This document shows positions 1 through 51,500 of a stretch of DNA of 64,000 nucleotides, in pieces; positions within the stretch are counted from its first letter, which is position 1, and the number at the start of each line of letters is the position of its first letter. A program made the translations under genes and the position numbers. The notes under the pieces were generated by a model. The model saw only the letters and a program-made list of their open reading frames with translations. It had not been told where the DNA came from and made no database searches. The stretch is from Branchiostoma floridae. Its lineage: Eukaryota; Chordata; Leptocardii; Amphioxiformes; Branchiostomatidae. The DNA is taken from the NCBI RefSeq assembly GCF_000003815.2, contig NC_049991.1:15704202-15768201 (forward strand), in the 5' to 3' direction.

Positions 1-190
1 AGTAATTTTCTATGATTCCATTTGCTTGTAACGTTAGATTCCAGTACCAAGGTGTTGGCTTTTTTTTTTAACTGCGGACGTGTGGACACAATCAGTATTG
101 GCACTTAGGATATGATATTGGCATTATCTAGAATTAATTTCATTTAAGAAAAAGAATAATAAGTAAACAAAACTTTATCTCTTGTTTCAG

Positions 191-652
191 ATCATCCTTG
201 CCTTCACTGACTCTATCTGTAAGTATGTCTCCAACCATGCCACCTTCTCTTCTGACATTTTGTTTTCCCTTAATGCGCACCCTGGAGCTTCCGTATATGA
301 TTTGACTTCTGACATCTCTCGTCACCCTTTTGTTGAGCCTGACCTGGTGTTCTTGCATGCGGGGACTAACTGTCTTCCCATGCACCGTCCACTCAGCCGG
401 ACTCTTGATGATTTCAGTTACCTTATTTCTGTTACCAAGTCTCGCTTCCCGTCAGCCTCTGTTGTCATCTCTAGCATCCTGCCTAGGTTTGACTCTGAGG
501 TCTATGACAGGAGGCGCTCTGAGTTGAACTTTCATTTGCTTCGCCTATGTTCTCGCCAGGGTGTGTTTTTCCTTGACAATGGTAGCCGGGCTCACCGGGC
601 CATGTTTTCTGTTGATGGTTTACATTTGAGTAGAGCACGGTACTCTCCTATG
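191..652 (+). CDS. SGNH/GDSL esterase-like exon of the mobile element (runs into gap)
   Basis: A pyrimidine-rich acceptor ending in CAG at 188-190 opens a frame that runs to the assembly gap at 653. The translation has the blocks of an SGNH hydrolase-like fold: an FTDSI start in place of GDSI, a PGASVYDL segment, LHAGTN in place of the GxND block, an ISSILPRF strand, and a terminal DGLHLSR matching the catalytic DxxH block. Esterase-like domains of this kind are known accessory parts of several transposable elements, including some LINE ORF1 proteins. The first-block Gly is replaced and the usual third-block Asn is followed by Cys, so catalysis is uncertain. There is no initiator Met at the acceptor, which fits an internal exon. 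Continuity with the downstream repeat ORF cannot be judged because the gap length is nominal. Confidence 0.6.
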
Positions 653-1034
653 NNNNNNNNNNNNNNNNNNNNNNNNNNNNNNNNNNNNNNNNNNNNNNNN
701 NNNNNNNNNNNNNNNNNNNNNNNNNNNNNNNNNNNNNNNNNNNNNNNNNNNNNNNNNNNNNNNNNNNNNNNNNNNNNNNNNNNNNNNNNNNNNNNNNNNN
801 NNNNNNNNNNNNNNNNNNNNNNNNNNNNNNNNNNNNNNNNNNNNNNNNNNNNNNNNNNNNNNNNNNNNNNNNNNNNNNNNNNNNNNNNNNNNNNNNNNNN
901 NNNNNNNNNNNNNNNNNNNNNNNNNNNNNNNNNNNNNNNNNNNNNNNNNNNNNNNNNNNNNNNNNNNNNNNNNNNNNNNNNNNNNNNNNNNNNNNNNNNN
1001 NNNNNNNNNNNNNNNNNNNNNNNNNNNNNNNNNN
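653..1034. other. Assembly gap (run of N)
   Basis: This 382-base run of N separates the esterase-like exon from the GC-rich repeat ORF. The left edge of the sequence after the gap starts inside a minisatellite, so the gap probably results from collapse of that array. Confidence 0.99.
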
Positions 1035-1460
1035 GGGTAGTGCAGGGAAGGGTCCTTCCCAGCCGAGGGGGGTACCTGTAGCTAGACCGGCCCCAGGGAA
1101 GGTAGAGGGGGGTAGTGTGGGGAAGGGACCTTCCCGGCCAAGGGGGGTACCTGTAGCTAGACCGGCCCCAGGGAAGGTAGAGGGGGGTAGTGTGGGGAAG
1201 GGACCTTCCCGGCCAAGGGGGGTACCTGTTCCTGAGCCTAGACCGGCCCCAGGGAAGGTAGAGGGGGGTAGTGCAGGGAAGGGTCCTCCCCGGCCAAGGG
1301 GGGTACCTGTAGCTAGACCGGCCCCAGGGAAGGTAGAGGGGGGTAGTGTGGGGAAGGGTCCTTCCCGGCCAAGGAGGGGACCTGTTCCTGAGCCTAGACT
1401 GGCCCCAGGGAAGGTAGAGGGGGGTAGTGTGGGGAAGGGTCCTTCCCGGCCAAGGAGCAC
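1035..1460 (+). repeat. GC-rich coding minisatellite, 75-81 bp unit
   Basis: About five tandem units share the core gggaagggaccttcccggcc. Units alternate between 75 bp and 81 bp; the longer form adds a Pro-Glu pair. All length changes are multiples of three, so the plus-strand frame is kept. The minus strand is also open here, which is a by-product of the repeat and not evidence of a gene. Confidence 0.9.
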
Positions 1461-2403
1461 ACGTACATTGAGTAAGAGTGAGTGGAAGAATATGATGAAT
1501 AAAAGGCTTAGTCAGTTTAAAGAAGCACAAGATAAAGGTGAGGTTGTGTGTGGTATTGGTTGTGAAGGGGAAGATGTGCAGTATGTAATATGTCCTACAG
1601 GGTGGAGTAGTTGTAAGCTTAGGAAGGGCAAGGAGAGTACAGGTGTATTAGGAGGGTTTAGCAGGGGAAAGACTAGGTGTAGGAGGGTTAGTGGTAAAGC
1701 TAAGAGGGAGAAGTTGTCAGTACCAACTAGGCTAGAGGTTAGAATGTTGTATAGTGGGCCCCTTAATCCCTCAGGGTGGGTGGAAAAGGTTAAACAGGTA
1801 GGTACTAGTACCTGTAAGAGTAGTGAGGAGGGGGTAGGAGATGTTAGTGATAATGTGACCTGTAAGAGTAGTGAGGAGGGGGGAAATGAGTGTAATATTG
1901 TTGCCTGTGAGTCTAGTAAGTCTAGTAAAGATGGGGTAGAAGATGTGACTGATAGTGATGTCTGTGAGTCTAGTAAGGATGGGGTAGAAGATGTGAGTGA
2001 TAGTGATGTATGTGAGTCTAGTAAGGATGGGGTAGAACTAGAAGATGTGAGTGATAGTGATGTCTGTGAGTCTAGTAAGGATGGGGTAGAAGATGTGAGT
2101 GATAGTGATGTCTGTGAGTCTAGTAAGGATGGAGTAGAAGATGTGAGTGATAGTGATGTCTGTGAGTCTAGTAAGGATGGGGTAGAAGATGTGACTGATA
2201 GTGATGTCTGTGAGTCTAGTAAGGATGGGGTAGAAGATGTGAGTGATAGTGATGTCTGTGAGTCTAGTAAGGATGGGGTAGAAGATGTGAGTGATAGTGA
2301 TGTCTGTGAGTCTAGTAAGGATGGGGTAGAAGATGTGAGTGATAGTGATGTCTGTGAGTCTAGTACTGATAGCGATTCCTGTAAAACTTCTTGTCAGTTT
2401 TGA
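1035..2403 (+). CDS. Repeat-rich basic/acidic protein of the mobile element
   Basis: An open plus-strand frame (clear from 1117, probably from the gap edge) ends at TGA 2401-2403. It has three parts. The first is about five basic Pro/Gly/Arg-rich repeats of 25-27 residues (core GKGPSRPRGVPV, about 1035-1455). The second is a unique segment of about 120 residues with Lys/Arg-rich stretches (about 1456-1800). The third is an acidic array of a 16-residue unit, CESSKDGVEDVSDSDV, about nine times (about 1915-2375). The acidic repeats are Ser/Asp-rich and look like phosphorylation or charge-spacer sequence; no function is recognised. The basic and acidic arrays could form one polyampholyte with the esterase upstream, but the gap prevents proof. 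Confidence 0.5.
1915..2375 (+). repeat. 48-bp coding minisatellite (16-residue acidic unit)
   Basis: Nine near-identical 48-bp units follow one another, differing by single substitutions such as serine/threonine in DVS/DVT. One unit has a 6-bp in-frame insertion (Leu-Glu). High identity points to recent expansion or homogenisation. A second gap (2404-2503) begins right after the stop codon that ends the array. Confidence 0.95.
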
Positions 2404-2503
2404 NNNNNNNNNNNNNNNNNNNNNNNNNNNNNNNNNNNNNNNNNNNNNNNNNNNNNNNNNNNNNNNNNNNNNNNNNNNNNNNNNNNNNNNNNNNNNNNNN
2501 NNN
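2404..2503. other. Assembly gap (100 N)
   Basis: A nominal 100-base gap lies between the acidic repeat ORF and the transposase-like ORF. Its true size is unknown. Confidence 0.99.
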
Positions 2504-2522
2504 ACTCTTGGGACACTAGCAA

Positions 2523-4988
2523 ATGTATCAGGTGTGTGAGTTACAAAAAATGGTAAGTAATGTATGTGGATTCAACATTTCATGTAGAAACCTTAGCTTG
2601 GGGGGCAGTATTCTCTATGATGACAATGATATTGTAGAAATACATGATAAGACTGTGATAGTGACACTTTTTGGTTGTGGGGGAGGTAAACCTATTAATT
2701 TCCATCCAGACAGGCCATGTTCCTCAGCATGTGCCCATTGTAAGAAGCCACCTGTTTTTCAATTTGATAAGTATACACATCCACAGGGATGGAATGAATC
2801 ACTTAGAACTTGGGTAATCGATAATACAGGACTTTCTAGTACAGACTGTGTGTGTCGTTCATGTGAGCGTAACTTTCGACGGCTGGCCAAAGATTCAGTT
2901 TCAGAAATACCAAATTCTTCCACTGACACTCCTGATGCAACATTGCCACAAAAACCATGTTTCATGTCTGAGTTTCATTTATGCCACGAATTGGCCAACC
3001 ATGAGCGTAAAAATTTCTCAGTTGATGACATGATGTCTTACATTCTCTCCATTTCTGAAGCAGCTACAGGATGTAGTTCCTTGCCAAATTCTATTCATAT
3101 GTGCACATTTCATTATCATCAGTTTTGTAGATTTAATGAACAAGATAAATGTACCCATTGCTGCAAGGTAATAAAGTCACATAAAAGGAAACGGTTCTGT
3201 CCAAAATTGAATATTCCACAATCAGCTTTAAAATTGGTTGACTCAAATTTGTTAGAAGGGTCTATTTTGTGCAACTATTGTTATCAATGTTTATATAGAT
3301 CAGGGAATCTTGTCAAGGGTGAGGAAAGTCTAGAAAAACGCTTAGAAATGTTGAGGAATTTTGAAGTAGAACATAGCCTAGAAAACATACCACAATTGGC
3401 TTTGCACCAGGTTTCTTGTAAGGTAGGTGAATTGTTTCTGGAGAATAAATCTTTATTACTTGTTGATGCTTATGATTGTTATGTAGAGAGTATTCAGACA
3501 CTTATTAAGGAATTTGACAGGAAGGAACAAATTGATGAAGCTGATGCTTTCTATTTTCAAGCCAGATGGCTATTAGTTGGGTTATTGAGTGATCTGGGAA
3601 ACTTTCTTTTAATCCACAAAAGTTCAAGCAAAAGTAACAAACTAAGTTTTTTGTTATACTATAAAGATGCTGATTTGATTGAATCCCTTCATTTAGCTTT
3701 ATATTCTGCACGGTTAAACACTTACAAGCGGGATCTTGAGTTAAAGTCTATTCAGTCCAACATCGCTTCTATGTTCACGGATGTAAATCAAGACACAATC
3801 AATTCTTCGCTTTTATCTTCTTTGATGTACATGAATAGTCTAGTTCATCAAGAATCTTCCAAATTCATTGATAAGTTTGTTCAGTGTCCAAGTTCCCTCC
3901 ATGAAATTGACATGTTGCAAATTTCAAAAGAAATAAACCCTATTGTTTGGAACTTTATTGTTGTATTAACTATGCAAAAGTCTGAAATTCTTATGTCTGA
4001 TTTTGAAACATTTGATATGAATAAACATTATTTAACGTTTCTTAAGAATAATTCTAGCCATAGTTCTTCCAAGTTTTTGAGACGTCTTTTTGCTACTTTC
4101 CTTATCTTATTTATTGTCTCTGACGGTCAGTGTAGTTATCCTTTTCACATGATTAATTCAGAATTAATTCATTCTTATAGCCAGTCTACTGATCTTATGC
4201 AATTGTTAAATCGCCTTGGTGTATGTTGTTCCAATGATTCTCATAAAAGATTTATTTCTGGAATGTTAGATCAATTGAGATTAGAAGATAATCATTATAA
4301 TTTGACAGAAGGTTCTTTTACTGTAGCTTCTATAGATAACATCAATAGTGGTAGTCCCCATGCAGCTGTGACAGGTAGTCCCCGAGGGTGGAACGGCACA
4401 TCTATTCAAGCCGTCCAACCAAAACCTAAATCCCTTCTTATTCCCAAGCCAAATTCATCTGTACATAGTAGTGAAGATATCTCTGTAGGTATAGGTAATG
4501 TTACTGAAACTGATGAGCCAGTATCAAAGAAAATCAAATTAGTTTCAAAGTTTAGGCAAAGAAAAAGGTCACCAAAGGAAATTGATCATAGTACTTTATC
4601 CCTTACACCCCCATCTTGTGTTCAGTCTATAGTCCCTTCCACTCCAATATCCCTGACCTTCGAACAGTTTGGAATATCTGAAGAAGAAATGAAAGAGTCT
4701 CATAAATTTAATTCTGAAGTATTACTTTATCAACTTGAAAGATGTATATCAGATTTGACAGATTCTTCTCATAAATTACCCAGTTTGAAATGTAAACTAT
4801 TTTTAGAAAGGGACCCTGTCACAGAAAAGTCTAATATTGCATATTTATCTATAATGAATGAAAATGCTGACTGTAAGGAGACAATGTTAAAAGCCCTTAA
4901 TTTCCTTCACACTTCATTTAATGTTGGCGTTGATATTGAATATTTAGTTGTTGTTGGGGATGCAAATTCATATGACCACCTAGCTTAG
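2523..4988 (+). CDS. Transposase-like protein, Cys-rich N-terminal half (821 aa)
   Basis: Long intron-free frame from ATG 2523 to TAG 4986-4988. The first ~260 residues hold several Cys pairs that look like zinc-binding knuckles: CSSACAHC near residue 66, CVCRSC near 105, CTHCC near 212 and CNYCYQC near 249. A helical, Leu-rich middle follows, then a basic stretch (KKIKLVSKFRQRKRSPK, about 668-684) that could be a nuclear localisation signal. The end, LVVVGDANSYDHL (about 806-818), resembles a strand plus catalytic Asp of an RNase-H-like transposase. I infer it is the first acidic residue of a DDE triad, because the reading resumes in the same frame 226 bp later with a compatible C-terminal half. 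The start is uncertain because the gap and a possible acceptor lie just upstream. Confidence 0.6.
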   Translation: MYQVCELQKMVSNVCGFNISCRNLSLGGSILYDDNDIVEIHDKTVIVTLFGCGGGKPINFHPDRPCSSACAHCKKPPVFQFDKYTHPQGWNESLRTWVIDNTGLSSTDCVCRSCERNFRRLAKDSVSEIPNSSTDTPDATLPQKPCFMSEFHLCHELANHERKNFSVDDMMSYILSISEAATGCSSLPNSIHMCTFHYHQFCRFNEQDKCTHCCKVIKSHKRKRFCPKLNIPQSALKLVDSNLLEGSILCNYCYQCLYRSGNLVKGEESLEKRLEMLRNFEVEHSLENIPQLALHQVSCKVGELFLENKSLLLVDAYDCYVESIQTLIKEFDRKEQIDEADAFYFQARWLLVGLLSDLGNFLLIHKSSSKSNKLSFLLYYKDADLIESLHLALYSARLNTYKRDLELKSIQSNIASMFTDVNQDTINSSLLSSLMYMNSLVHQESSKFIDKFVQCPSSLHEIDMLQISKEINPIVWNFIVVLTMQKSEILMSDFETFDMNKHYLTFLKNNSSHSSSKFLRRLFATFLILFIVSDGQCSYPFHMINSELIHSYSQSTDLMQLLNRLGVCCSNDSHKRFISGMLDQLRLEDNHYNLTEGSFTVASIDNINSGSPHAAVTGSPRGWNGTSIQAVQPKPKSLLIPKPNSSVHSSEDISVGIGNVTETDEPVSKKIKLVSKFRQRKRSPKEIDHSTLSLTPPSCVQSIVPSTPISLTFEQFGISEEEMKESHKFNSEVLLYQLERCISDLTDSSHKLPSLKCKLFLERDPVTEKSNIAYLSIMNENADCKETMLKALNFLHTSFNVGVDIEYLVVVGDANSYDHLA

Positions 4989-5213
4989 ATACTGACCACA
5001 GTTGAAATTGTTAAGCACATGTTCGTTCTTATCACTCACAAAAAAAAGGAAAAGAAGAGTAAATCACGCCATAGTTATGTTATGTTAATGTTATGTTATG
5101 ACGTCAGCGGTGTCCCGGATGTTCTCCGCCATATTGTTGAAGAGTATCCAGAAGTTATTAAACCGTGCTGCGTTCATCCCTTGCACTCGCGTCGTCCTTT
5201 GCGATCCTGGTAG
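4989..5213 (+). other. Foreign filler interrupting the transposase frame
   Basis: Between the two halves lie about 225 bp that do not continue the protein. The first part is A-rich with a short ATGTT repeat. The second part (about 5095-5210) is GC-richer and contains the perfect CRE-like octamer TGACGTCA at 5098-5105. The segment is open in the same frame from 5019 but ends at TAG 5211-5213, and its translation looks unlike either half. I read it as replacement of the internal catalytic segment by unrelated DNA. A retained intron is less likely because the expected middle of the domain is not found on either side. Confidence 0.5.
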
Positions 5214-8027
5214 TTCACTACTGACGAAGCTTTTCTAGAGTATAGAAGGAATAGTACTGACACTACTGATCAATGTTCATCAAGTTGTTCTTTTTCAGCC
5301 CAGACTATTGTTGATAAGGTAAGGGTATTTTTAGAATCAGTACCGCACTTTAGTGACCCAGGTTTTGATAGAGACAACTTTGTAAGAAGACAGGAATTAT
5401 TGAGAATGGAATTAGAAGGTATAGAAGATGACTTCAAGGAGTTTTGTTCCACAGCATGTGCCCGGGATGAAGTATTTTTGTTTTGGCACAGATTTGTTCA
5501 TGATGACTTTATGGCATATATTTCTCTTTTCATAGCAATTAGATCAGGGAATTGGAATTTGCGTTTGTATTCATACAAAATGATGGCACCCCTTTTCCAT
5601 GCCTTTGACCATGTAATATATTCTAGAATCATTCCCTTGCATCTTTGTGATATATTGTCTTGTCCTGACCATATTCTCAGATATTTCCAAGAGGGGGGAT
5701 TTGTTACCAGTATTAATTCTGTTAATTATTCTAATGTAGCTTTAGATGAGAGTCATGAAATGTTGATAAATAGGGACACAAAAGAAGTTATTACAGGGCC
5801 TAACAAATTTGTAATTGAAGATCTTGTTCTGTTTTTACCATATCGAGCTAAATTGATTAAACAAGTTAAAAAACAAATTCTTGTCAAAACAAATTGTAGA
5901 ACTCAAACTGATCTTAGTCCGACTATCATTGAACAAGAAAGGCTGAATATTGTTTATTATGCAAAAAAAGTTGTAGATGCCGGCATTTTTTCTGCCCTTG
6001 TACATGATAGATGTCTGTCCCAACCATTTACAGGAGCTTCTATTTCAGATATTCAAAGAGAAGACTTGCTTAAGTTTAGGGAAATAGGTAAGGCATCATT
6101 AGACACATTCATTAGGTTCAGGATACTTAACAATCCAAGTAATAAAGCACCCCAAAGACGAAAGTCTTTAAGAACTTTTTCTCAAATTAAAATGACAAAG
6201 TCTAGGGTTTCCAAAAGTGAAAAAGACAAAAAGTTAGTTTTAGAATGTTATCGTAGAGTTGTTTCCTGGTCCCAAAATCAAAATAAGCCCCTATCTGAAA
6301 TTGCCCACCTGTTAGATTTGCCCCAGCTAGGTCAGTTTCTGGAGCTGCCTCGTGCTTTATGTAATGCTGATGGAGTCCCTCACAAGGGGGCTAAATCAGC
6401 AACCACTTCTTTTTTCCAGTCTAGATACCCTAGTTCTTTCACCAAAATGTACCCTACCAATTTCTCTCCCCAGTGCTCTGTTTTAGAAGGAATGTTTTTG
6501 ATCAATACATCTCCATTAGGTCAGCATAGAACTTTTCTTGAGTATTCACATTTTCTGTTTCTAAAATGGGTTTTGCCTTTTCTTCAGTCAGGTTGTTATG
6601 AAGTCCATATTGTTTTTGATGACCCCCACCGAAATGGCCCTAGTCCTAAAGATGTTGAAAGAAATAGAAGAGATTCTGTTTTGGAAAATGACAATTTAAC
6701 ACTACTTGATTCAATTTCTGATGATACATGCACCCCAAAAGACTGGAGAAAATTCATTTCCTTGCGTCCAAACAAACGTTTGTTATGTTCTTACTTATGT
6801 ACTTCTTTACTTACAATTTGTACACCTTATTTGAGGCAGCAACAGAAAGTGTTCACAGCTGGGGCATTTACTGATGATAAGAGAGATATGTGTTTTGTTT
6901 CTTCAGTAGATGGCATCTCTCCATATCCAGACTGTAGGTCCAATCACGAGGAAAGTGACACTCGTGTTTGGCTGCATGCTGCTTCAAGCAGTTACAAAAA
7001 CATAATGATTTATTCACCTGATACGGACACGTATCACGTGGGCCTTCCTTTTGTGAGGCATACAGATAAAAGAATTGTCATTTTACAAAAAGCTGAACCA
7101 GGAAATTGGCAATGTCTGGATGTGAACGAGTTGCTATCTTGTTTTGACAAGGACCCTGATCTTTCCTCCCTTTCTAGATATCTACTACCCCATATAATTC
7201 AGTCACTGTTTATCTGTACAGGTTGTGATTATGTTTCCTTTTTTGTTGGCCTTGGTAAGGTATCATTTATGAAAACTTTCTTTCAGTTTTCAGAATTCAT
7301 TTCTAGTGGAAACTCTGACCAAACTAGTGGTTCTCTTTCTTGTGCAGATAAAGATACAGGGTTCTTGGCTTTTGTTCGTTTAGTTGGTAGTGTTTACTTT
7401 CAAAAACACCGTTCTGCTTTTCTTAAGTACTCATCTCCAGCCCAACTTTTCAGAGAAACGAGGGGGGATAATATTTCAAAGATTCATGAAAACTGGTTAC
7501 AAGTTATTAGGGGTGCCATCTTTGAAAGAATAGAGTTTGAAGATAATAGTTTACCTTCCTTTCAGTCCCTTTGGTTCCATTGGTTACGTTCTTGTTGGGT
7601 TTACCTCACTTGGGCTCAGGCTTTAGAGCAGGATTTTTCATCTGTATTGTTAGATAGGTACGGTTGGGAAATAGATAATCATGGTAATTTAATGATTACT
7701 TGGGATTCTAAAGAAAATATTGAAAAGGTGCAGAAGACTGTGGAGTTTTTAACCAGGGGGTGTAAATGTAAAAGTGGGTGCTCTAGTAAAAGATGTAAGT
7801 GTCTCAAGAAAGGTCAAGCATGTGGTCCAGGATGTAGGTGTTTAGATTGTTCTAATTCTATTTGTATTGAGCAAAATGAGGTAAGTCAGGACAATGCTGA
7901 AACAGATTCAGATAGTAGTAGCAGTAGTGATGATCAAGACTATGTAAATCTTATAGATGACTTTTATTGTGGTAGTCTGTCTTTATTAGATCATATTTCT
8001 GATTCAGAATTTTCTGAGGTAGAGTAA
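5214..8027 (+). CDS. Transposase-like C-terminal half: XPG/FEN-like nuclease plus CXC domain
   Basis: The frame is open from 5214 to TAA 8025-8027; the first ATG is at 5406, so as it stands it lacks the N-terminal part. Residue numbers here count from 5400. A conserved AIRSGNWNLR block is followed by VALDESHE (about 117), which I infer carries the final acid of a DDE-type fold. Further on, NHEESDTRVW (about 514), SPDTD (about 539) and TGCDYVSFFVGLGK (about 607) match the acidic clusters and helix-turn-helix GCDY..GxG motif of XPG/FEN1-type nucleases. Near 785-820 a Cys array (CKCKSGCSSKRCKC then CGPGCRCLDC) matches a Tesmin/TSO1-like CXC DNA-binding domain. A Ser/Asp-rich acidic tail ends the protein. 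Confidence 0.65.
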   Translation, partial: FTTDEAFLEYRRNSTDTTDQCSSSCSFSAQTIVDKVRVFLESVPHFSDPGFDRDNFVRRQELLRMELEGIEDDFKEFCSTACARDEVFLFWHRFVHDDFMAYISLFIAIRSGNWNLRLYSYKMMAPLFHAFDHVIYSRIIPLHLCDILSCPDHILRYFQEGGFVTSINSVNYSNVALDESHEMLINRDTKEVITGPNKFVIEDLVLFLPYRAKLIKQVKKQILVKTNCRTQTDLSPTIIEQERLNIVYYAKKVVDAGIFSALVHDRCLSQPFTGASISDIQREDLLKFREIGKASLDTFIRFRILNNPSNKAPQRRKSLRTFSQIKMTKSRVSKSEKDKKLVLECYRRVVSWSQNQNKPLSEIAHLLDLPQLGQFLELPRALCNADGVPHKGAKSATTSFFQSRYPSSFTKMYPTNFSPQCSVLEGMFLINTSPLGQHRTFLEYSHFLFLKWVLPFLQSGCYEVHIVFDDPHRNGPSPKDVERNRRDSVLENDNLTLLDSISDDTCTPKDWRKFISLRPNKRLLCSYLCTSLLTICTPYLRQQQKVFTAGAFTDDKRDMCFVSSVDGISPYPDCRSNHEESDTRVWLHAASSSYKNIMIYSPDTDTYHVGLPFVRHTDKRIVILQKAEPGNWQCLDVNELLSCFDKDPDLSSLSRYLLPHIIQSLFICTGCDYVSFFVGLGKVSFMKTFFQFSEFISSGNSDQTSGSLSCADKDTGFLAFVRLVGSVYFQKHRSAFLKYSSPAQLFRETRGDNISKIHENWLQVIRGAIFERIEFEDNSLPSFQSLWFHWLRSCWVYLTWAQALEQDFSSVLLDRYGWEIDNHGNLMITWDSKENIEKVQKTVEFLTRGCKCKSGCSSKRCKCLKKGQACGPGCRCLDCSNSICIEQNEVSQDNAETDSDSSSSSDDQDYVNLIDDFYCGSLSLLDHISDSEFSEVE

Positions 8028-9060
8028 GGGTAATAATGAGTGAAATAGGACTGTCTATTTTTGTATAGCCTAAGGTATAGGTGAGGGGAAGCTGGTCTTT
8101 TCTGTACTCCTTCACCCACTTTCTCTCCCTCTCTCCTTTTTCCAAAGAACCCCTTCCTGCTAGGTTTAGACATCTGCCCCCGTAGGTAGGTTAGAGGCGC
8201 CTGACCCCTGTAAAGGTCGTACTTAACGACGTCAACATGGGGTACATCACACAGATCCCCGAGTTGACGGGAAAGGCGTAACCCCGCACTTTGGTACGGG
8301 TGCAGGTTGGAGGTTCTGACTTTGTTTCCTTACTCCAGCTGTCCCTCACCTATGGGTTTGGTAGTATAGGGTCATTGCTAAACATATGATCTTAAAATTT
8401 AGATATAACGTTAATATATTCTTAGTCTAAGAAATATCTTGATAAAGTTGATAATATATTTAACATATATCTAAATAAAGATACTAATAGGAGTAAGTGA
8501 ATGAGTGTGAGTGCCTGACTGAGTGTATGATATCTGTAATTGATGAGTAAGTAAGTACCTGATGTATGACGAATGGATATTTACCTTTTTTGTTTGTTTT
8601 TGCATTAGATGGAGTTCTACCCCAGATCAGCTGAGGATGTGCCTCTTGCAGCTCAACTGTCTGTAACTTTAATTTCTTTGATTGACATTGTATCATTGCA
8701 GATACACATGTAATAAGTGAAGTATAAATTCAGAATGATATATCTACTATTAATCATAATGATTGTAAATTCTTAAAGAATATGTACTTTTCCTAACATT
8801 CTTTGAAATATGTTTTATACAGGTGATGTTCTGCTGTGAATCTGAGGAGGGTGACAGCTTTGTTGGTTATGCATATCATTTGGCGTGAATTCAATCATAT
8901 CATTTCACATTATTGGAATTATCATTCTGGCCCAAAGAATCGCCAGATGTTTGGCAGTAAATTGTTTGATTCCAAGTATTGTTTCCAATTGGGCATCAAT
9001 ATTTAGGCATGACTTGTTTGTTTAATAAAGTTTGGCTGGTATTTAACATATATGGCTCAT
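8028..9060 (+). other. 3' flank of the element; possible terminal exon and poly(A) signal
   Basis: No gene is recognised here. Two acceptor-like sites (before 8611 and before 8822) and an AATAAA at 9024-9029 give the look of a plus-strand 3' end. It could be the 3' untranslated exons of the element's transcript or of a host gene in which the element sits. The longest readable stretch from 8611 is only about 34 codons. Confidence 0.25.
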
Positions 9061-11022
9061 TGTTTTGTTTTTTACAGTACAATAGTAAGGGTTATATACT
9101 TTAGGTGAATCTAGGTCAATGAGAGAAGAAAAAGTTGAACCTTTTGGTTTCTTATTGGGCACAATGTTAACTGACAATGCATCATTCCATGCACCTTAGG
9201 TATAATTTAGGTACATGGTAATTAAATGTGTCAAACCAATATGATATGAACTGTTGACAATTATGAATGAAATGTTACCAGTAACCATACTGTAAACCTT
9301 GGTTAGGTTTATAGCAAAGAGGCTATATGAGCCCATGCCGTGAATGGCATGAAAAACTCTGATTCTCTTATTATTTGATACATCATGTAATAGTTTTCTT
9401 TAATAATATATATAATATATATATAATATATATAATCTTTAATAAAACAGACTCTGAGGTATTACAAAAATGTAGTTTCGTAGGTGCGCTTTGGTAAGAT
9501 TGGGATTGCCATCTTGGTTAAATGGGCAGAACTTTCTCTTTGGCTCGGTGACCCTTCCACCTGCAAGCTTAAACAATTACTAGATCTTACCAAGGTTTTT
9601 TTTTAACCATGGATGTTTTTTTTAACCTCCTTGATGTTGCCAATTTTTTTAGTATCAATGGAACGAGACATAAAAAGACGTCTTGGAATCGACCAGTAAA
9701 TTAGATGCAAAAGTAATGGACTCTAGTAATTATTCTACAAGAAGAGATTTCGGTCGGGAGACGACTAAATCGCGGCCGCTACCAGCCCACGGACCAGAAC
9801 GTCTGCTTCCGCTCCAGGCGGCGCGCGCGTTCTATTCTGGAATCAAAAATGACCGCTCCTGATGACATCGCCTCGCGCGGATTGGCGGCAAATGCTTTAC
9901 GCCCTTGAAATGTGTAATAAGTCATATACCAACAAAAAATAGAGAGTTTGCCCTTTCTTACACACTTAATTTCCTGTTGGTTTGAAGTCTACAACACGTT
10001 AAAAACAAGAGGTGAAATCACGCGAAAATAAGCTAATTTCGGGTCGTATTATTGACAGGAAAGCGATAAATCATCGGTACAAAAAACTATAGGAGTACGA
10101 AACAAAGCTGGTAGATTGTAAATAACTTGAAATCAAAAAGATACGTGGTAAAATATTCAAGCAACAGGCTTTTTTGTTGGGGGTGTTAACGCCCGGAATC
10201 ATAGAAAGGACTACTTTCTCTCGCGGAAGGAAAATAAAATTCCATAGAACTCTCGACGTGGCGTGGCGGCTGTCCTTCACCAACTCTAACGGTTTGTTTT
10301 ACCGTTCGAAAAATGCGTTACCATCGCAACCAAAGAACAACTGTTCCAAAGAATGTTCATAGCAGATTACGTAACAAAAGGACACAGTGATCTATGACGT
10401 AAGGTGTGCCAAACGTCACAGATAAATGTGGTTCCTTGCCAGTGCCAAATGTTTGTGGCCACTCTGAACAAAAATCTCTCTCTTTCTCATGTAATTGTGT
10501 CTGGCTTACATCATGATGATCGATCGCAGATACCAAAGGAATGTAGCGCTGTTAGAAGACGCCCCAAATCTTGCGGCTGCTCCACGATGAAATGTTGCAT
10601 TTCAGCACCAAGGACGTCTCCAACAGAGAACACGCCCGTAGTTCACTCTGGGTGACGAAGGTGAAACGCTGCGTTAGTCTTTCTTTATGATCGTGAATGC
10701 TACCAAACTAAAACATGGATGATGAAAGTTTTGAAAATGAAGTCTTTGTTTCTTACACTTGGCTGATGAGAATAATTAACAGTTACAGACTGCCCATCTA
10801 GTCATCATAAACGCGCGGCATCGAACAATGTTCTACAAGACTAGTCGTTACCAAGGACACGTAAACAAACATGGTGTTCGAAAATAAACACGTGCAGAAC
10901 AAATGGTAGCTACATACTGGCATGGCTTCTTTCTATCGCCTCACTGACATCCACACACGCAAGAGAAAGATGCTATATGGCCGTGTTTATAGCGTCGTGT
11001 TCGTTACTGTATCTACACTGCC
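9061..11022. other. Intergenic, no gene seen
   Basis: AT-rich sequence with a TA-repeat cluster near 9400-9432 and a GC-rich patch near 9765-9880 (NotI-like GCGGCCGC at 9772). Only short, unconvincing open frames occur. The 3' part (about 10.4-11.0 kb) precedes the first exon of the next gene and probably holds its promoter, but no TATA box or other element stands out. Confidence 0.5.
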
Positions 11023-35700: not shown

Positions 35701-38700
35701 GCCATCCTATGTACATTATACCTTTATCATACTAGCACAGCATGCTGGCCTTTGGCATGGTTTAAGCGATCAGCCACTCAGAAACTGTGCAGTAAACCTT
35801 TTTTTATTGCTTCTTCAGTAGCTTAGACATTACCTTCTCAGAGAGTGGTGTACGGGCACTTAACTAAAACCTTACCTGACGCTATAATGACATCCGGAGC
35901 CAGGGACTGGAGCTCCTCTTGTGTGACTGAGGCCCAGTCCAGACACATTACAGACATTTTGGAACCTGTGCAACACCAAAGGAGACAGGGAGAGACAAAA
36001 TGTCACTGATACAGCCTTAGCTGATGTAAGTCTGGAGTCTCAAGCCTGTCTGGATGACCACAGAAGCATTGAAGTTACATCAACAAAAATGAAATGCTGG
36101 AGCAAACTTCTCTGTAAAAAATTCTAGAGCTACAGTTGTTGCAATTCTGATAACAACTTTAAACCAAATGATACTAGTACTCCAGAATGCATTTGGGCAG
36201 ACAAATGCTATCATTAGGCTGTCATGTCATAGAAAGTGTTTTTTCAGGAGCAGAACTTGCAGTGCCAAAATGAAAATGATGCTCTGCAAGGCAAGTAATA
36301 ATATTTCCAATAGAGAATACAAGGAAAAATCATACTTTATACTTAGTATTGGTGAGTCGGGGTTAAGCAATTAAGCAAGACTCATGCAAAAACATTGTTC
36401 TAATAAAAGACATAGAAGAAAAGAAAGCATACCTTGAACAAGTCTGGTTTCCCATGGGTGATTCCCTGTGTACCAACTCACATTCTCCATGTTAGCATCG
36501 GACTTTCCAAACCTAAACACTGCGGTATTAGTACAACTTTGCAGCTCTGTCTCAGGTAAAACCTCACTGGCATTCTCCTGGCAAGACAGATTAGTGTCTG
36601 AATTATGCTGACACCTGTTACAAGTTTGCTCCCTTTCATCACCCTTATCTTCCACAGGGTCTGTGCTGTAATTTACCACAACAGCTTCTGTGTTGTTTCT
36701 GGCATGCTCGCTGTGATAAGCACCGCCATGCGTGCTCTTCTGTTTAACTGCCGTGCACCCCTGCTTGCCGTTTACAGAGCCTCCCCCCTCCTCTCGGAGC
36801 TTGCAGTTGAGGACCAGGTTTTCCCAGAGGTTGGCGAGCACGTTGGGATGGCAGTCACTGTAGATGTAGTGGGCGGGGCTGCAACAGGAGCTGATCACCA
36901 GTCCTGTCAGGCCCATTCCACTGCCGAGTTCAAGAACTGTTCTGAGGGAAGAAGAAAATTTTAAAGGATTATTGTTAGTGAAAGTAGTCATCTTGAACTA
37001 GTTTGAACTGGAACAGGAGCTGATGACCAATTCTGTCAGGTCCATCCCACTGCCTAGTTCAAGAACTGTTCTGAGGGGAAAAGAAAATTTTAAAGGATTA
37101 TTGTTACTCAATGTTAGTGAAAGTAGTGATCTTGAACTAGTTTGAACTGCAGCAGGAGCTGATCACCAATCCTGTCAGGCCCATCTCACTGTCTAGTTCA
37201 AGAACTGTTCTGAGGGAAAAAGAAAATTTCAAAGGATTATTGTTAGTGAAAGCAGTGATCTTGAAACTAGTTTGAACTTCCACTATATGTGCCAGACAGT
37301 CAATATATACAGCATATACAGGATTGTTGTACCAGGGAAGTTACCATTTATCTCTTTGCAATGTACAATGTACAATGAACAGTGTGTAATGGGTTAACGT
37401 TATGCTCTAAAGACTGTGGCCCTTTTCAGTAGTGTGTGAGTCGGGTGAACAACAGAAGCAGGTCCACTAACCACTGGACTATGCATGCTACCACCAAGGA
37501 GGTTATATACACATGTAACCTCCTTGCTACCACAAAGGAATATTCTAGAGTTACAGCCCTGAAAGTTTTAAAGGTGCCCAACAGCACTAACTTAAGGCTT
37601 TAAACAACCATCAGACTTTTTATATGAAAATGAAAGAAATCTGAGTTTGCTTAACACATGAAAAACACAAATCAGGATATTGTTCATATTGTTCTTATTG
37701 GCAAATGATAGACAAAGGTTTATTGAGAACACTTTTCTATGGAAACGGTCTGTACATGTATAACAATAGCACACATTTGTGGATACAACTTTAATCCACT
37801 AAGATACATGACGATGTCCTTCAGTTGCCACACTTGAAAGAAAAGCCAATCAAGCCTAGATCCCAAGATACATGTAGCTGTAATAAGTCACTTTTAAACT
37901 GCCAATTTCTCTTTTAGGCCATTGTCATGAAGTTTGCTGCAATCATTAATAACAGCGCAGCAAAGTGCAAAGGTAGCAATAATTGCTACACAACAGGCAC
38001 AATGGCCGGTCCCTCTGCACCTGCAACTGACAATTACCGGCACAAACAGCATTCATTTGTAATTATATTAATAGCTGCTCTTATATCTTGCTCAGCTCGA
38101 GCTTTGATAATAAGCATCCTGACACTCTCAACTCCTGTAAGTGCTGAAGGTAATTTCTCTCACAGGGAAAAAGCTTTATTTTGTAAAGACAAGTAGTAAT
38201 TAACTACACTTAGCAGAACAGGACTAGCATGAACTCTCATAATTCTGCCTAAGGTACCCTAAAACCACCATATTAAAAAAACATGGCACTATGAAGGTTT
38301 CTGTAAATAATTTCATCAGGTTGGTAATTACTCATATAGTAAAGTTCTTTTAAACACAACCATGGTAGTACTCACATCCAACATTTCGATGTCAGACACC
38401 ATCATCAGGGTTAGAGAGAGCGGATACAACACAGCCACGTTTGGGACGACATTCTCGCTACTGCAGCGCCACCTACATTGGCTATAAGTAGCAGTGAGAA
38501 GCAAATCCAGTCATTCTAACCCTGATGATGGTATCTGACAGACATCGAAACGTTGGATGTGAGTACTACCCTGGTTGTGTTTAAAAGCACTTAACTATAT
38601 GACTACAGTCTACTTCGTGCAACCCGCCTGTCTACATCTCAACACTGCAACGCCTTGGAGCCTGTGAAATCAGCTACCACATTCCACCGCCGCACCTTCC

Positions 38701-41540: not shown

Positions 41541-44500
41541 ACAGCTCATCACATACTTCCTGACCAGCATCCTCACACTAGAAAAGCAACATACTCTTCC
41601 TCAACCAAGACAAACGACACACAAACAGAATAGCTGTAACAGTCTTTGGTTCCAAAGAACCATTCTCTACATTCACTGAGGAATAAAACAAGACATAGAC
41701 CGATTACGATACTCTGTCCATGGAGGTCACCCTCCAGTCACAGTGTAAAAAGTATCATCAGTTATCTAAATAATCAATATATATAAGAATTATAAATCTA
41801 TACAACAACAAGGCACAATTACAAGTCCTACAGCAACATAAAAAGATTAGGATAGTGAAATATTGATGAATGCAGCAGTTTTACAGACTGTACATGTACA
41901 GCAATTTGATACCATGCTAAGACAAGAATTCACACCTGACCTGTTGAATGATGTGCTTGAGGAAGGCTTGTCTATAAGACAGGGAGGTGGGGTACCTCAT
42001 GATGAGGGGGTGATGAACAGTCTGTAAAAACAAGTGGATGTTGTAAACACGTACAACAGTCATAAAACATAAGCAGAAACATATGTACAAATGGAAAACT
42101 AGAGAGAACTTTAACCTTTAGCATGTTAAGTTCACATTTTACATCTTGGGATTTTTACTAGTACTCCGTTTTTGAATCTCTTACTTGATCATGAGTTGAA
42201 TGACTGCTTCCGAAAATAATTTCATCAGGTTGGTAGAATATAGGATATATGAGAATTCTTTTGCACAACCAAAATTTGACTTACTTGCTGACGTTTCGAT
42301 GTCTGTCAGACATCTTCCTCAGAGCTTCTAACTGGAGTTCTGCTTCTCGCCGCTATATGTAGCCGATGTAGGTGGCGCTTTTGCGGCGAGAAGAACACTA
42401 TCCCAAACGTGGCTCAGCTTGTACCCCCCCCTCGTCCCGGTTCATCACTGGGGCGGACTTCCTTATCCAGACTGCTTCTTTAATCCAACGTATTCGTCTG
42501 TTGTCTTCTCGATCTATAACCTTGGCCCCCTCCCAGTCAATATAGCGGCGAGAAGCAGAACTCCAGTTAGAAGCTCTGATGAAGATGTCTGACAGACATC
42601 GAAACGTCAGCAAGTAAGTCAAATTTTGGTTGTGCAAAAGAATTCTCATATATCCTGAATGACTGCTTATTTCAAAATACTCCAATATACCAAAATTGAG
42701 GCACTCTCAACAGAATCATAATGATACACATAGTATCCATAGTCAAACCAACTCACCATTTGTAGCAGCTCCTGCTGATCCTCAAGTTCAAAGACAGCCT
42801 TTCCCTTGTCCTCCCCATCAAGCTGCAATAGATTGAATACGAACTTGTAAACTTTGTAATGCACTGCACTCATTGTAAGAGAATTTTGACTGCAGACTTT
42901 TCAATAAAAATTCTCTTATAATGATAAAACTTCTCCCAAGTGAAGTTTATAACTGTTTTATGAAAATCAAAAGGGACTGTGTACTCCGAAAAGCAAGCAC
43001 ACCAAGGACTTAAACTTCAGAATGCACAACTTTTTATTGTCAACCCTTTCTAAAACCAAACTATTTCACAACCTAAGGGCCTCACTTTATGGTGAGTTGG
43101 AGTAGAGTGCCATCCAATTACTTTTGAAAATTTGTTGACCAATAAAATGTGAAACATCTGGGTAATAAAGGGCTTGCTAAGTAAAAGAGTAATACTAAAA
43201 GCCAATAGAAATAATGACCTTTAACTGTAGTTTCAGACTTTATAATAAAGCCGCTATGTACGTGTAACCTGGCATGTAAATGCCAGAAAAAAAATTGAAA
43301 TAACCAAACAAAGGTTATGGTTATTTTGTTAGCTGCATGCTGGGTACAGGCAAGGTTTTTACACCTTGAACAACACAGCAAACTTCAACCACTCCTAGCA
43401 ACACAACAATTCTGCAAACAGAACGGGTGATTTCAAACCAGGAACACAGATTATGAACAAGAAGCCTTCTTGAAAAAGTAGGTATGACACCAACTATTAT
43501 GGTACATGCGTTTCTTTGACAAATGTATCTTATCATGGCAAATCTTTGATCCCAATAACGTTATAAACTACTACACTGTATGCTAAGCCGCACAGTCTTT
43601 TCTGAAGCGATTGTCATTGCATCAATTTTTTATATCAAAACTAGACAGTCTAAAAGAACAGGCAATGGCATTGATCTATGATTCCAGCTTTATATAACGT
43701 CCTTGGCAGCACTGAATGCATTGCTTTTATCTTCATGATCACATAGTGAATTATATTCTCCAGAGACTATGATCCGTTACTTACGCTATTGTGGGACAGA
43801 CTGCTCATTAGTTGAGCTTTATTGATTACCCAACTGGGCTGAATCAGTATGGAGGGATCAGGCTTTGGCTGTCAGGGGGATGACAAATCTGCAATACGTG
43901 GGACTGCAAGGTGTTCTATATTTATGACGCACCATTTGTAAATGTTTTATGATGCACGGCTTTCAATAAAAGAGTACAAGCTTTTTTATATGCCAGGAAA
44001 AGGCAGGAGGGACATTTACACATGGATGTACTTAGTACTCATTCAAACTTTCAGAGTAAGCTATTTTTACTTGATAGTAGGTTGGTTTCTGATCTATGTT
44101 GTTGAAGGTTTGACAGTCAGGTAGTATGATATGTAAGGTTACAGTTATTCAAGCACCTGGATAAATTTTGGAAACGGTTTCTGATTAACATCTGACTTTT
44201 CAAACATGAAAGATATAATAGGCAATGGCATTGATCTATGATTTGTGTTAAATTGATCTACCAACCTGATGAAACTATTTACGGATGAAAGATATATCTT
44301 CAGGTTAAGTGCATATTATTGATTTACCCCTGCAGTATACATCTAAAATCAGGCCATGCAGGTTACAACTTTGGGACTTTCTACCTTCTGGCTGATTAGC
44401 ATTTGGGATCTGCAAGCTAATCAAGATCCTAAGGTAGCAAGTAGTACAAGAATCACCACATTTGCAATACTCTGATTCATTCTTCTAGATCAAGTCAATC

Positions 44501-48513: not shown

Positions 48514-51500
48514 TTAGACTAGTTGGTCTAGGTGTGGGGTGTTGGATAGATCTCCCAGAGCGGCCATCGTTGGCTTGCCGTTGAACACGCGCTTTGCAAC
48601 CTGCAACAAAATCAACAGAGTGTTAAATGACAAACTTTCTTGCTAACACTATCAGCGCATAGATCAGGGCTATCTCAACTTTACCTTTTTTTCTGTCCAA
48701 CTCTTTGTTTACGAGCCCACGTTGTTGATTTTCCTCATTAGGTATGTAATGCAAACTATTTTGCCATGACCAATGTAATAGTCCTTTTCTATGAGCTCTG
48801 CAGGTGAATGTGGAAATGAAACAGAAACAGCAAGGTGACATAGTGGTCTGGTGGTAAGCAGTGTTAACTTGGAATGTATAAAAAGGTACTGAGTTCAAAT
48901 CCCTGGTAGGACCCAATGTTGTTGTGCACTATTTCCTCACTAGACTCGGAAGTATATGTATCTATGTGTGTCCTTTTGTGAGCTCTATGGGTTTTTCAGA
49001 CCTAAAATAAATAAAAAATAAATCGGCTGACCTTGACTATTTGGTCAGTGGTGATGGAGTCCACCTGTGCTGCCACCTGGTCAGGGCTGACATAAGCTGC
49101 CGTCTCCACGGCCTGGAGTGCCAGGTCCTCCAGCATGTTAGCCGAGTCCTCCATGGACATCAGCACTGCAGCCTTCAGCTGGCTCCTGCACAGGTAATGG
49201 ATATGTAACACATCACATGGCATCTATAGACATGCTATATAACTGCAGCCTTCAGCTAGCTTCTACACAGCCAATCAAAAGATTTGTCAAACATCACATG
49301 GCATCTATAGACATGCTATATAACTGCAGCCTTCAGCTAGCTTCTACACAGCCAATCAAAAGATTTGTCAAACATCACATGGCATCTATAGACATGCTAT
49401 ATAACTGCAGCCTTCAGCTAGCTTCTACACAGCCAATCAAAAGATTTGTCAAACATCACATGGCATCTATAGACATGCTATATAACTGCAGCCTTCAGCT
49501 AGCTTCTACACAGCCAATCAAAAGATTTGTCAAACATCACATGGCATCTAAAGACATGCTCCACAACTACAGACTTCAGCTGGCTCCTGCACAGACAATC
49601 AATGGATATATAAAACATCACATGGCATCTAGAGACATGCTCTATAACTGCAGCCTTCAGCTGGCTCCTCTGTTTGCCCATACTAATACTTCCAAACTTC
49701 TCCAAGAGTCTATATTTCATTATGTTGGTAATATTTTCTCAAATCAAATGACCTACAAAACATTATAAGATGTATAGAAATGCTCTATGACTGCAGTCTT
49801 AATTGTATCTGTGTTTTTCTCTCTTATACAGACAAATCTTTGGTCTCCATGAAACAGTTTTAAAAAGCCATACAAAAAATACATAGTCAGGAAATGGCCA
49901 AATGGGAACAATAATTTGTTAGTTAGCCAGAAGAATTTACCTTGCAGATATCCCGCCCCCTTTTCTTAGCCCACAAATGTGTCAGGCAGGGGCAAGGTGT
50001 TTTTCATAACTCAATTCTACATGGATGGATACTATAAAATACACACTACATTGGAAGCTAGTTACTCACTTGGCCCTCTGTACGTCAGCATCCTTCACGT
50101 CACCTTTAGTGATGGCTCCATACTGACTCACAGCAGCCTTCAGAACCTGGGGGGAAAAGCAAAACGATGTCAGGAGGCGGAGTGTTGAAGTATTTTGCCA
50201 ACTCTTTATGATCAACCAAAGCTTCTACTAACACAGGACATGGACCTTCCTCTGTCCTGGACTCCCCACGAGCCAGGCTCTTCTCTGTATCTAGGTCACT
50301 CGTGGGCACTTCTAAACCCTTATAAGTGATTCAGTCACAGTTGAACACACTTTAGCCACTAGAAGAGTCAGCAGAACTTACTCACCATCATGTACAACAT
50401 GACGAACAGATATTTGCAACCCAGATTGTCCTCTCCCATTTCAGACTCACAACCACTCAAGAAGACTACAGGATACTGATAAAATCTGTTCTATGCAGAC
50501 AGGTGGTCACTACAAACAGGATTCTTAATGCTTATGTCAATTACAAAAACTATCTAAAGGACCACCGAAAAGCAGTCGTGCTGGCCAGGTGGTCACTCAC
50601 ACAGATTTGACTGTATAAGGCAGTTACAATTTGAGAAACAAGTTGACTCACTGTTCCGATCTGCTCAGCTGGTGCTGCTGCCAGGAGTCCAAAAAGCCCA
50701 GAGTCTGTGTAGTTGGCATTGAAGCATGTAGTCTAGATATCACAGGGAAGAACGAAAACCATGTCAATTGAAATCCAAATTCTGTTGTGTAGAATTAAAA
50801 AGTGTTTAAAGATGATGTCAGAGTCTGACAGTTTCTTATCATGGCTCACACCGTTCACAATTACTTTCTAAATCATACTGCACACACAACAGATTTATGA
50901 TTAAGATGAGCCTAGAACACAACAAAAACATTGTTTAACATGGTCTTGAAGAGAACTCTCCAGTAGCATTATTCATGTAGTTGAAGAAATTTTGACATGT
51001 CATCTTCAAATGAAACTTCAGTTATGTTTTTGTTGTCTTGATGTACAGACCTAACACATCATCATCGGTGGTCTTATTCTTCTGGCTGGTCTTATTGTAA
51101 CACAGGTAGGCATAAATAAGTGTCTTGAGCCCTGAAGTGGGGCAAAATGTACAACTTGTACAACTTTACTCACTGAGAAAGGCATTTGTGTGGCCTGAGC
51201 CACGCCCCTGTTCAGACGGGAGGAGGCTGTGTCGCTGCCCCACTTGATGTACGGTCCAGCTCCCAGCAGTCTCTGCAGCACCGCGAGGGACAGCAGGTCT
51301 GTGCTGTTCAGCGACGACCCTTCCGTCACGATGGCTGCTGTACTGATGGGGCTGAGGATGTGTCTCCTGGAGTCAACTAAGGTCACATGGACAAAAGGTT
51401 CATGGAGATTACTCAATCATTGTTCTTGAGCACCCCCTAGCTATTAGTATAAAAACTGCACAAAACCAGCAAAATCCAGGAACAGTTTCTTCAGGTTGGT

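Follow-up and report, generated by a model that had tools for sequence, protein, structure and literature searches.

The window analysed here is a stretch of 64,000 nucleotides of the Branchiostoma floridae genome (NC_049991.1, forward strand; C13:15704202-15768201 in the contig names used below), and its first 10,272 positions are part of one copy of a DNA transposon bounded by terminal inverted repeats (TIRs), with esterase and nuclease parts on the plus strand. The element is very probably an AcademX-type DNA transposon, the transposase of which would have gained an N-terminal SGNH esterase. This reading draws on TIR-bounded units flanked by target-site duplications (TSDs), on open frames that join the parts, and on selection on the esterase resembling that on the nuclease half. 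The element is of a known kind; the pairing of an SGNH esterase with a TIR DNA transposon appears to be undescribed in the literature searched. A first-pass annotation of the window had proposed a mobile element at positions 1 to 8300, and the blocks that it named, comprising SGNH motifs, Cys knuckles, an acidic XPG-like set, a CXC array and repeats, are all present on the plus strand.

Mobility of the element is well supported. The further copies and element ends that the annotation had expected of a whole-genome search were found in the assembly (513,431,437 bases in 431 contigs), a search for TIRs inside the window alone having given nothing usable. Similarity between copies ends at a CAGCCGCCAAGCCACGT-like sequence on the left and at its inverse on the right, and this 17-mer, with up to one mismatch allowed, occurs at 49 sites per strand genome-wide (98 in all), against 1 + 1 for a reversed control. 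The sites form 30 pairs within 20 kb, in keeping with the TIRs of AcademX. Seven pairs, of 11.3-17.3 kb, are long copies, while 13 span 1,716-1,775 bp (eight of them exactly 1,755 bp) and are too small to encode the protein described below. A TSD is present at all 20 pairs for which flanks were fetched (of the 30), measuring 4 bp in 14, 5 bp in five and 6 bp in one; among long copies read by eye, it is 4 bp in the window copy and those designated C6a and C9a, and 5 bp in C3a and C6b. The whole copy occupies C13:15703069-15714473 (11,405 bp), its left 1,133 bp lying outside the window, before base 1. The mobility proposed earlier is thereby upheld by TIRs, TSDs and short derivatives, and the proposed limits give way to an 11.4-kb unit with its right end at 10272. 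A single-copy host gene, which the annotation had held open, is contradicted by the terminal repeats, the target duplications and the short paired-end derivatives. The parts of the copy are as follows.

1-10272, plus strand: window part of the transposon copy, from copy-to-copy boundaries and TIRs
1-190, plus strand: 3′ part of a putative intron, with acceptor TTGTTTCAG ending at 190
191-652, plus strand: predicted SGNH/GDSL esterase domain with catalytic S, G, N, D and H
653-1034: assembly gap (N)
1035-1455, plus strand: 25-residue Pro/Arg/Gly repeats in 75-bp units (tandem repeat, 75 bp x 5.5)
1456-1812, plus strand: non-repeat linker, kept between copies
1813-2365, plus strand: 16-residue acidic Ser/Asp/Glu repeats in 48-bp units (Tandem Repeats Finder array, 48 bp x 9.4, at 1907-2365)
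2404-2503: assembly gap of 100 N
2520-2693, plus strand: candidate remnant of a possible ubiquitin-like segment ending in GGG
2694-3300, plus strand: Cys/His knuckle region
3301-4980, plus strand: N-terminal part of the core protein, to VVVGD
4981-5213, plus strand: foreign interruption of the core (another dispersed repeat at 4988-5213)
5214-6479, plus strand: remaining core with invariant DxxxE (DESHE); DUF6589 covers its first part in two other copies
6480-7256, plus strand: XPG/FEN-like nuclease, with LEG, IVFDD, HEESD, PDTD and GCDY..GLG
7755-7859, plus strand: CXC (Tesmin/TSO1-like) domain, from Pfam
8077-8353, plus strand: inverted repeat (8077-8095 and 8335-8353) in the 3′ region of the element
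10256-10272, minus strand: right TIR, reading ACGTGGCGTGGCGGCTG on the plus strand
10273-10276: target-site duplication TCCT, 4 bp

The two long open frames of the window, of 822 residues (2520-4988) and 937 residues (5214-8027), lie in the same register, the second ending in an acidic tail that follows the CXC domain up to the stop at 8027. Because of the two assembly gaps, linkage of the esterase to these frames is unprovable from the window alone, and it is through gap-free copies elsewhere that the parts are linked after all. Ten copies were fetched, 20 kb each; in nine of them, tblastn found the SGNH domain on the upstream side of the core, and the tenth (C4) has 10.6 kb of N at that place. 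In C3a, C7 and C9b there is no N from the esterase to the CXC domain. In C3a, the esterase, both repeats and the opening 55 residues of the 822-residue frame of the window are joined in one frame of 1,153 residues free of stops and N. C7 has a gap-free frame of 2,147 residues that takes in everything between the last 25-residue repeat and the close of the CXC frame, and in C6a a gap-free tail of 2,154 residues extends to that same point from the linker. Taken together, these frames cover every junction in frame. The annotation had counted several frames; the overlapping gap-free frames of the copies are read here as one fused protein, and the product appears to be a single polypeptide of about 2.6-2.9 thousand residues after exon 1, the distance from esterase start to stop being 7,819 to 8,776 nt in four copies. 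Exon 1 is predicted to hold two codons (ATGGCG), to lie upstream of the window and to be spliced in phase 0 to the acceptor before the esterase: ATGGCG followed by GTAAGT lies about 0.2 kb inside the element in four of five copies examined, and C9b reads GTAGGT by eye. A possible ubiquitin-like segment of ~75 residues, ending in GGG, was also seen by eye before the Cys/His region (L016:9479-9778 and other copies). It gave no match to Pfam ubiquitin, a DSK2 ubiquitin domain came up only at E=1, third behind two unrelated hits, and at least five out of 200 column shuffles scored higher than its hhalign score to ubiquitin of 13.45.

Association of the esterase with the core extends across the genome. 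The 937-residue frame gave at least 53 matches and the SGNH domain at least 102; 49 of 71 and 150 of 172 candidates were scored, respectively, so that counts are lower bounds. Close copies, defined by one stretch of at least 482 of the 937 residues at 76% identity or more, number 12 with the window included; the C4 copy with its 10.6 kb of N, fragments below 482 of 937 residues and five relatives at 26-28% identity were excluded from the count. In ten of the 12, an SGNH match lies on the same strand no more than 10 kb upstream, and the possibility raised in the first-pass annotation, that copies elsewhere always lack the esterase, came out otherwise. Close SGNH matches with no nearby core among the matches listed are found as well, e.g., at C6:19946396 and C1:31889126, the former probably an internal deletion, since it sits inside a 3,253-bp TIR pair. 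Two units, C9:923635-938385 and C6:13790475-13807760, form a diverged subfamily with 76% esterase identity to the window; they are longer, at 14.8 and 17.3 kb, and carry several additional kb of sequence on the 3′ side.

The esterase itself is recognized by Pfam Lipase_GDSL_2 within 167-640 at E=5.5e-9, above the cutoff. The nearest solved structure is PDB 4c1b (E=1.7e-7), the esterase of an open reading frame 1 (ORF1) protein from a retroelement without long terminal repeats (non-LTR), and the alignment places S, G, N and the D-H pair at matching positions; the catalytic residues of this type of esterase are named in PMC3905857. The catalytic Ser, Gly, Asn and Asp-His are kept in all seven copies examined, and the domain is accordingly predicted from its residues to be an SGNH/GDSL hydrolase. 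Its first block, called GDSI-like in the annotation, actually reads TDSI; the remaining blocks, HPGA, GTN and DGLH, are present as described. Selection was assessed from ratios of nonsynonymous to synonymous divergence (dN/dS) in seven of the nine fetched esterase-bearing copies, C1 (esterase incomplete) and C6b (esterase split) being excluded. Over 149 codons of the SGNH domain, C9b compared with six copies gave 0.203, 0.199, 0.198, 0.166, 0.184 and 0.174 at dS 0.67-0.77; over the nuclease half, C9b compared with five copies gave 0.159-0.174 at dS 0.58-0.64. Similar dS, similar dN/dS and the kept catalytic residues argue that the two parts are similar in age within the element and about equally constrained. 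The closest kin found of this esterase are stand-alone ORFs at L038 and L040 (44-48% identity), followed by CR1-like esterases such as that of L039, and the transposon esterase was likely drawn from a pool of element-borne esterases. The stand-alone SGNH ORFs (L038:1642-2316 and L040:472-1155) are 225-228 residues long, and their loci are 92.5% alike over 1.29 kb. L039:3-3500 is CR1-like by eye, with a PHD-type finger and SGNH in ORF1 followed by an endonuclease-like ORF2; units of this sort may account for many weak SGNH matches in the genome.

The nuclease of Academ transposons is of the XPG type. In the window, the acidic XPG motifs lie between 6612 and 7256. The pattern was tried in two forms, each matched by 0 of 20,000 shuffles, the motifs having been picked after viewing the sequence and with knowledge of FEN1. 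Searched as a single sequence, the XPG region had no hit in Pfam and no credible one in PDB or NCBIfam. A nine-row profile (the window, three further copies, four relatives from the same genome and L003, described below) matched five Exonuclease 1 sequences in PDB at E=8e-4 to 0.018 for the whole sequence, followed by nothing below 1; for the best stretch alone, E was 0.018-0.026 in the three alignments shown. The Exonuclease 1 alignment covers the VFD..S.K..ER.RR and GCD..G.G blocks. In all rows that extend over them (7 to 9), the acids of the FD, E, D, PDTD and GCD motifs are identical, and we take them to correspond to FEN1 D86, E158, E160 (here D), D179, D181 and D233; the first acid, D34-like by FEN1 numbering, is E in the window's family and D in five relatives. 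The element would thus carry the XPG-type nuclease expected of AcademX. An AlphaFold2 model of 6312-7739, made without relatives, had a mean predicted local distance difference test score of 37 and was not used. Pfam TCR matched the CXC domain at 7755-7859 (E=2.7e-4; 21.6 bits, just below the cutoff of 23.5), and apart from Lipase_GDSL_2 and TCR the other ORF segments of the window gave nothing above cutoff in Pfam. The domain searches called for by the annotation have borne out its esterase above cutoff and its CXC domain just under it, and its nuclease by a profile match only. For the core, DUF6589 matched above cutoff in two copies of the family (2.2e-7 and 1.2e-6); no mention of DUF6589 was found in the literature searched. 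A DDE triad might be formed by the invariant D after VV, the D at column 231 and the DxxxE motif of the alignment. These invariant acids and the DUF6589 matches are compatible with an Academ-type DDE core.

Academ has been split into AcademH and AcademX, with duplication lengths, and AcademX carries a nuclease (PMC10045372). Inverted repeats, a transposase with a nuclease and short TSDs are common to AcademX and the element of the window, which differs in adding the N-terminal SGNH esterase and two repeat-coded linkers within its length of 2.6-2.9 thousand residues. Relatives that share the order of core, XPG motifs and CXC cysteines occur at L034 and L035 in the same genome and on the contig L003 (JAJRVU010000273.1), filed in a Planctomycetota metagenome-assembled genome and carrying a 1466-residue core-XPG-CXC relative; this contig is probably eukaryotic contamination. 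They are 23-24% identical to the element in alignment A2, with open frames of 1466-1583 residues, and an esterase was not found in any of the three, L003 being cut at its 5′ end. Peptide-pattern scans found no relatives in viral contigs or prokaryote genomes and tblastn none in phages; a motif pattern gave five loci, one of them (L003) a relative, and its second codon form gave zero.

Esterases of this fold are otherwise known from retroelements. SGNH/GDSL hydrolases are described in ZfL2, CR1 and related non-LTR elements (PMC3905857, PMC5408684), SGNH in Ngaro-like elements (PMC9210276), and GDSL in bdelloid LTR elements and Terminons (PMC5408684, PMC6431247). As described, Ngaro-like elements, bdelloid LTR elements and Terminons are mobile elements with a hydrolase, as is the element of the window, and differ in being retroelements that carry it as an additional ORF. 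The CR1/L2-like ORF1 esterases (ZfL2-1, PDB 4c1b; L039) likewise have the SGNH domain, at 29-35% identity, and the catalytic residues of 4c1b agree; they belong to retroelements, whereas the domain studied here precedes a DNA transposase. In place of the CR1-like order of an esterase ORF and then an endonuclease/reverse transcriptase ORF, the esterase frame runs on to the core, XPG and CXC, and no reverse transcriptase match was obtained in the ORFs scanned (the 3′ non-coding part lay outside the scan). The role of SGNH domains in retroelements is not settled; proposals link it to membranes or to the handling of ribonucleoproteins.

Several observations weigh against an AcademX-type transposon with an esterase-bearing transposase. 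The likeness of the element to AcademX is one of described features, and its TSDs of 4-6 bp compare with 3 or 4 bp in AcademX (PMC10045372). Of six long copies read by eye, C1 alone has no TSD, and its left flank is also that of C9a; in C7, the left repeat is missing its first two bases. An end-to-end open frame was seen in no gap-free copy; C3a, C7, C9b and C9a shift frame, each at places of its own, a pattern that suggests independent indels and not a programmed shift, and C6a is open over 2,762 residues only provided that its gap of 383 N is correctly sized. Among the core features, DUF6589 was without a match at E up to 5 in four of six proteins scanned, these being own-genome relatives, and its match in L003 was below cutoff (E=0.003); in relatives, A, G, M or S replaces the D of GDWH, which weighs against this D as the core's second catalytic acid. 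Two of the 12 close copies lack a clear upstream SGNH: at C6:21567293 no SGNH match lies within 10 kb upstream among the matches listed, and at C11:12688602 the SGNH match lies antisense to the core, within another TIR pair. The five distant core relatives (C4:29.0M, C8:2.68M, C4:20.95M, C19:2.09M and C13:18.88M) have no nearby SGNH among the matches listed, and 8 kb around each of four of them, including only 1.5 to 3.0 kb above the long frames, held no credible SGNH (best E=0.19). Between close copies, with few changes, SGNH dN/dS scatters from 0.15 to 0.47. Finally, G+C content at third codon positions (GC3) differs, with 0.51 for SGNH against 0.28 for each of the core frames, a contrast that would fit an esterase joined to an older core without proving so.

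This difference in GC3, the gaps in the window that separate the parts, and the commonness of weak SGNH matches in the genome (L039, the one opened, being CR1-like) would also fit two unrelated neighbours, namely the esterase ORF of a CR1-like retroelement beside an Academ-type transposon. Such a chance arrangement is highly improbable: ten of 12 close copies retain the pair, both parts have similar dS and lie inside one TIR pair, and the gap-free frames join them, C3a, C7 and C9b having led to its rejection. Slightly easier to entertain, and still improbable, is an esterase carried as a passenger, a captured fragment without function. Capture of an SGNH gene by a Helitron is reported (PMC4021074); a passenger would hardly show dN/dS of about 0.2 at dS of about 0.7 with its catalytic residues kept in every copy examined, and two diverged subfamilies both retain the esterase at the N-terminus.

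Long open frames under purifying selection are also what a domesticated, immobile host gene family would display, an idea that can barely be credited and is already contradicted by the TSDs at every pair with flanks, the 13 paired-end units of ~1.7 kb and the dispersed loci. More open is whether the element is already in a catalogue, such as Repbase under a lancelet Academ entry, in which case the novelty would be confined to its description. Repbase has an Academ superfamily (PMC9587614), and lancelet transposons have been studied; on the other side, no link of Academ or any other TIR transposon to SGNH or GDSL was found among the literature matches listed, a search that Repbase lay outside. 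Prior cataloguing is a serious possibility, if not the one we favour.

For the AcademX-type transposon with its added esterase, the following course may be proposed. The two-residue first exon would be spliced to the long exon, and the core of the resulting protein would perform DDE-type cuts and joins, with the CXC and Cys/His regions as its DNA-binding parts. At the ends, flap-like intermediates might be trimmed or cut by the XPG-like nuclease, which would leave duplications mostly of 4 bp, and the protein could also mobilise the shorter derivatives in trans. As a guess, the esterase might deacylate a lipid or protein of the host, so that the complex reaches or stays at chromatin or membranes. 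A bolder version, which we consider unlikely, is that the transposon requires its own esterase activity and uses membranes or lipids, with host ubiquitin-type proteases perhaps splitting the esterase from the nuclease half after GGG. If true, an essential acyl-hydrolase would be built into a class II element, and a use of membranes or lipids otherwise proposed for retroelements would extend to it. SGNH esterases recur across several kinds of retroelement, and the same fold, under similar selection, before a cut-and-paste transposase suggests that explanations tied only to an RNA intermediate or to reverse transcription are too narrow. One protein together with short inverted-repeat substrates would make a simple system in which the need for the esterase could be tested directly.

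The window copy differs from other copies in the interruption of its core. A GD..GDWHTLKNYQ block lies between the two core frames in all seven other copies compared, with a frame change in C9a and a cut by N in C1, and its place is taken at 4988-5213 by 226 bp of unrelated sequence. This segment matches 24 places, the window included, six of them full length at 98-100%. At four loci, its last ~147 bases have further matches about 5.3-5.6 kb away, a spacing such as an LTR-type repeat would show. The junction recurs at C10, identical over 1,062 bp, which points to a nested insertion with loss or to an assembly chimera.

Elsewhere in the element, the 19-bp inverted repeat of 8077-8353 was present in three of the ten fetched copies by string search. 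Further along the window, two 117-bp arms (42242-42358 and 42540-42656), 99% alike and 181 bp apart, form an inverted repeat that may be another short element. Tandem arrays of 139-bp units at 36879-37278 and of 81-bp units at 49165-49669 were also observed, as were animal-type exons, e.g., one with a Folate_rec match.

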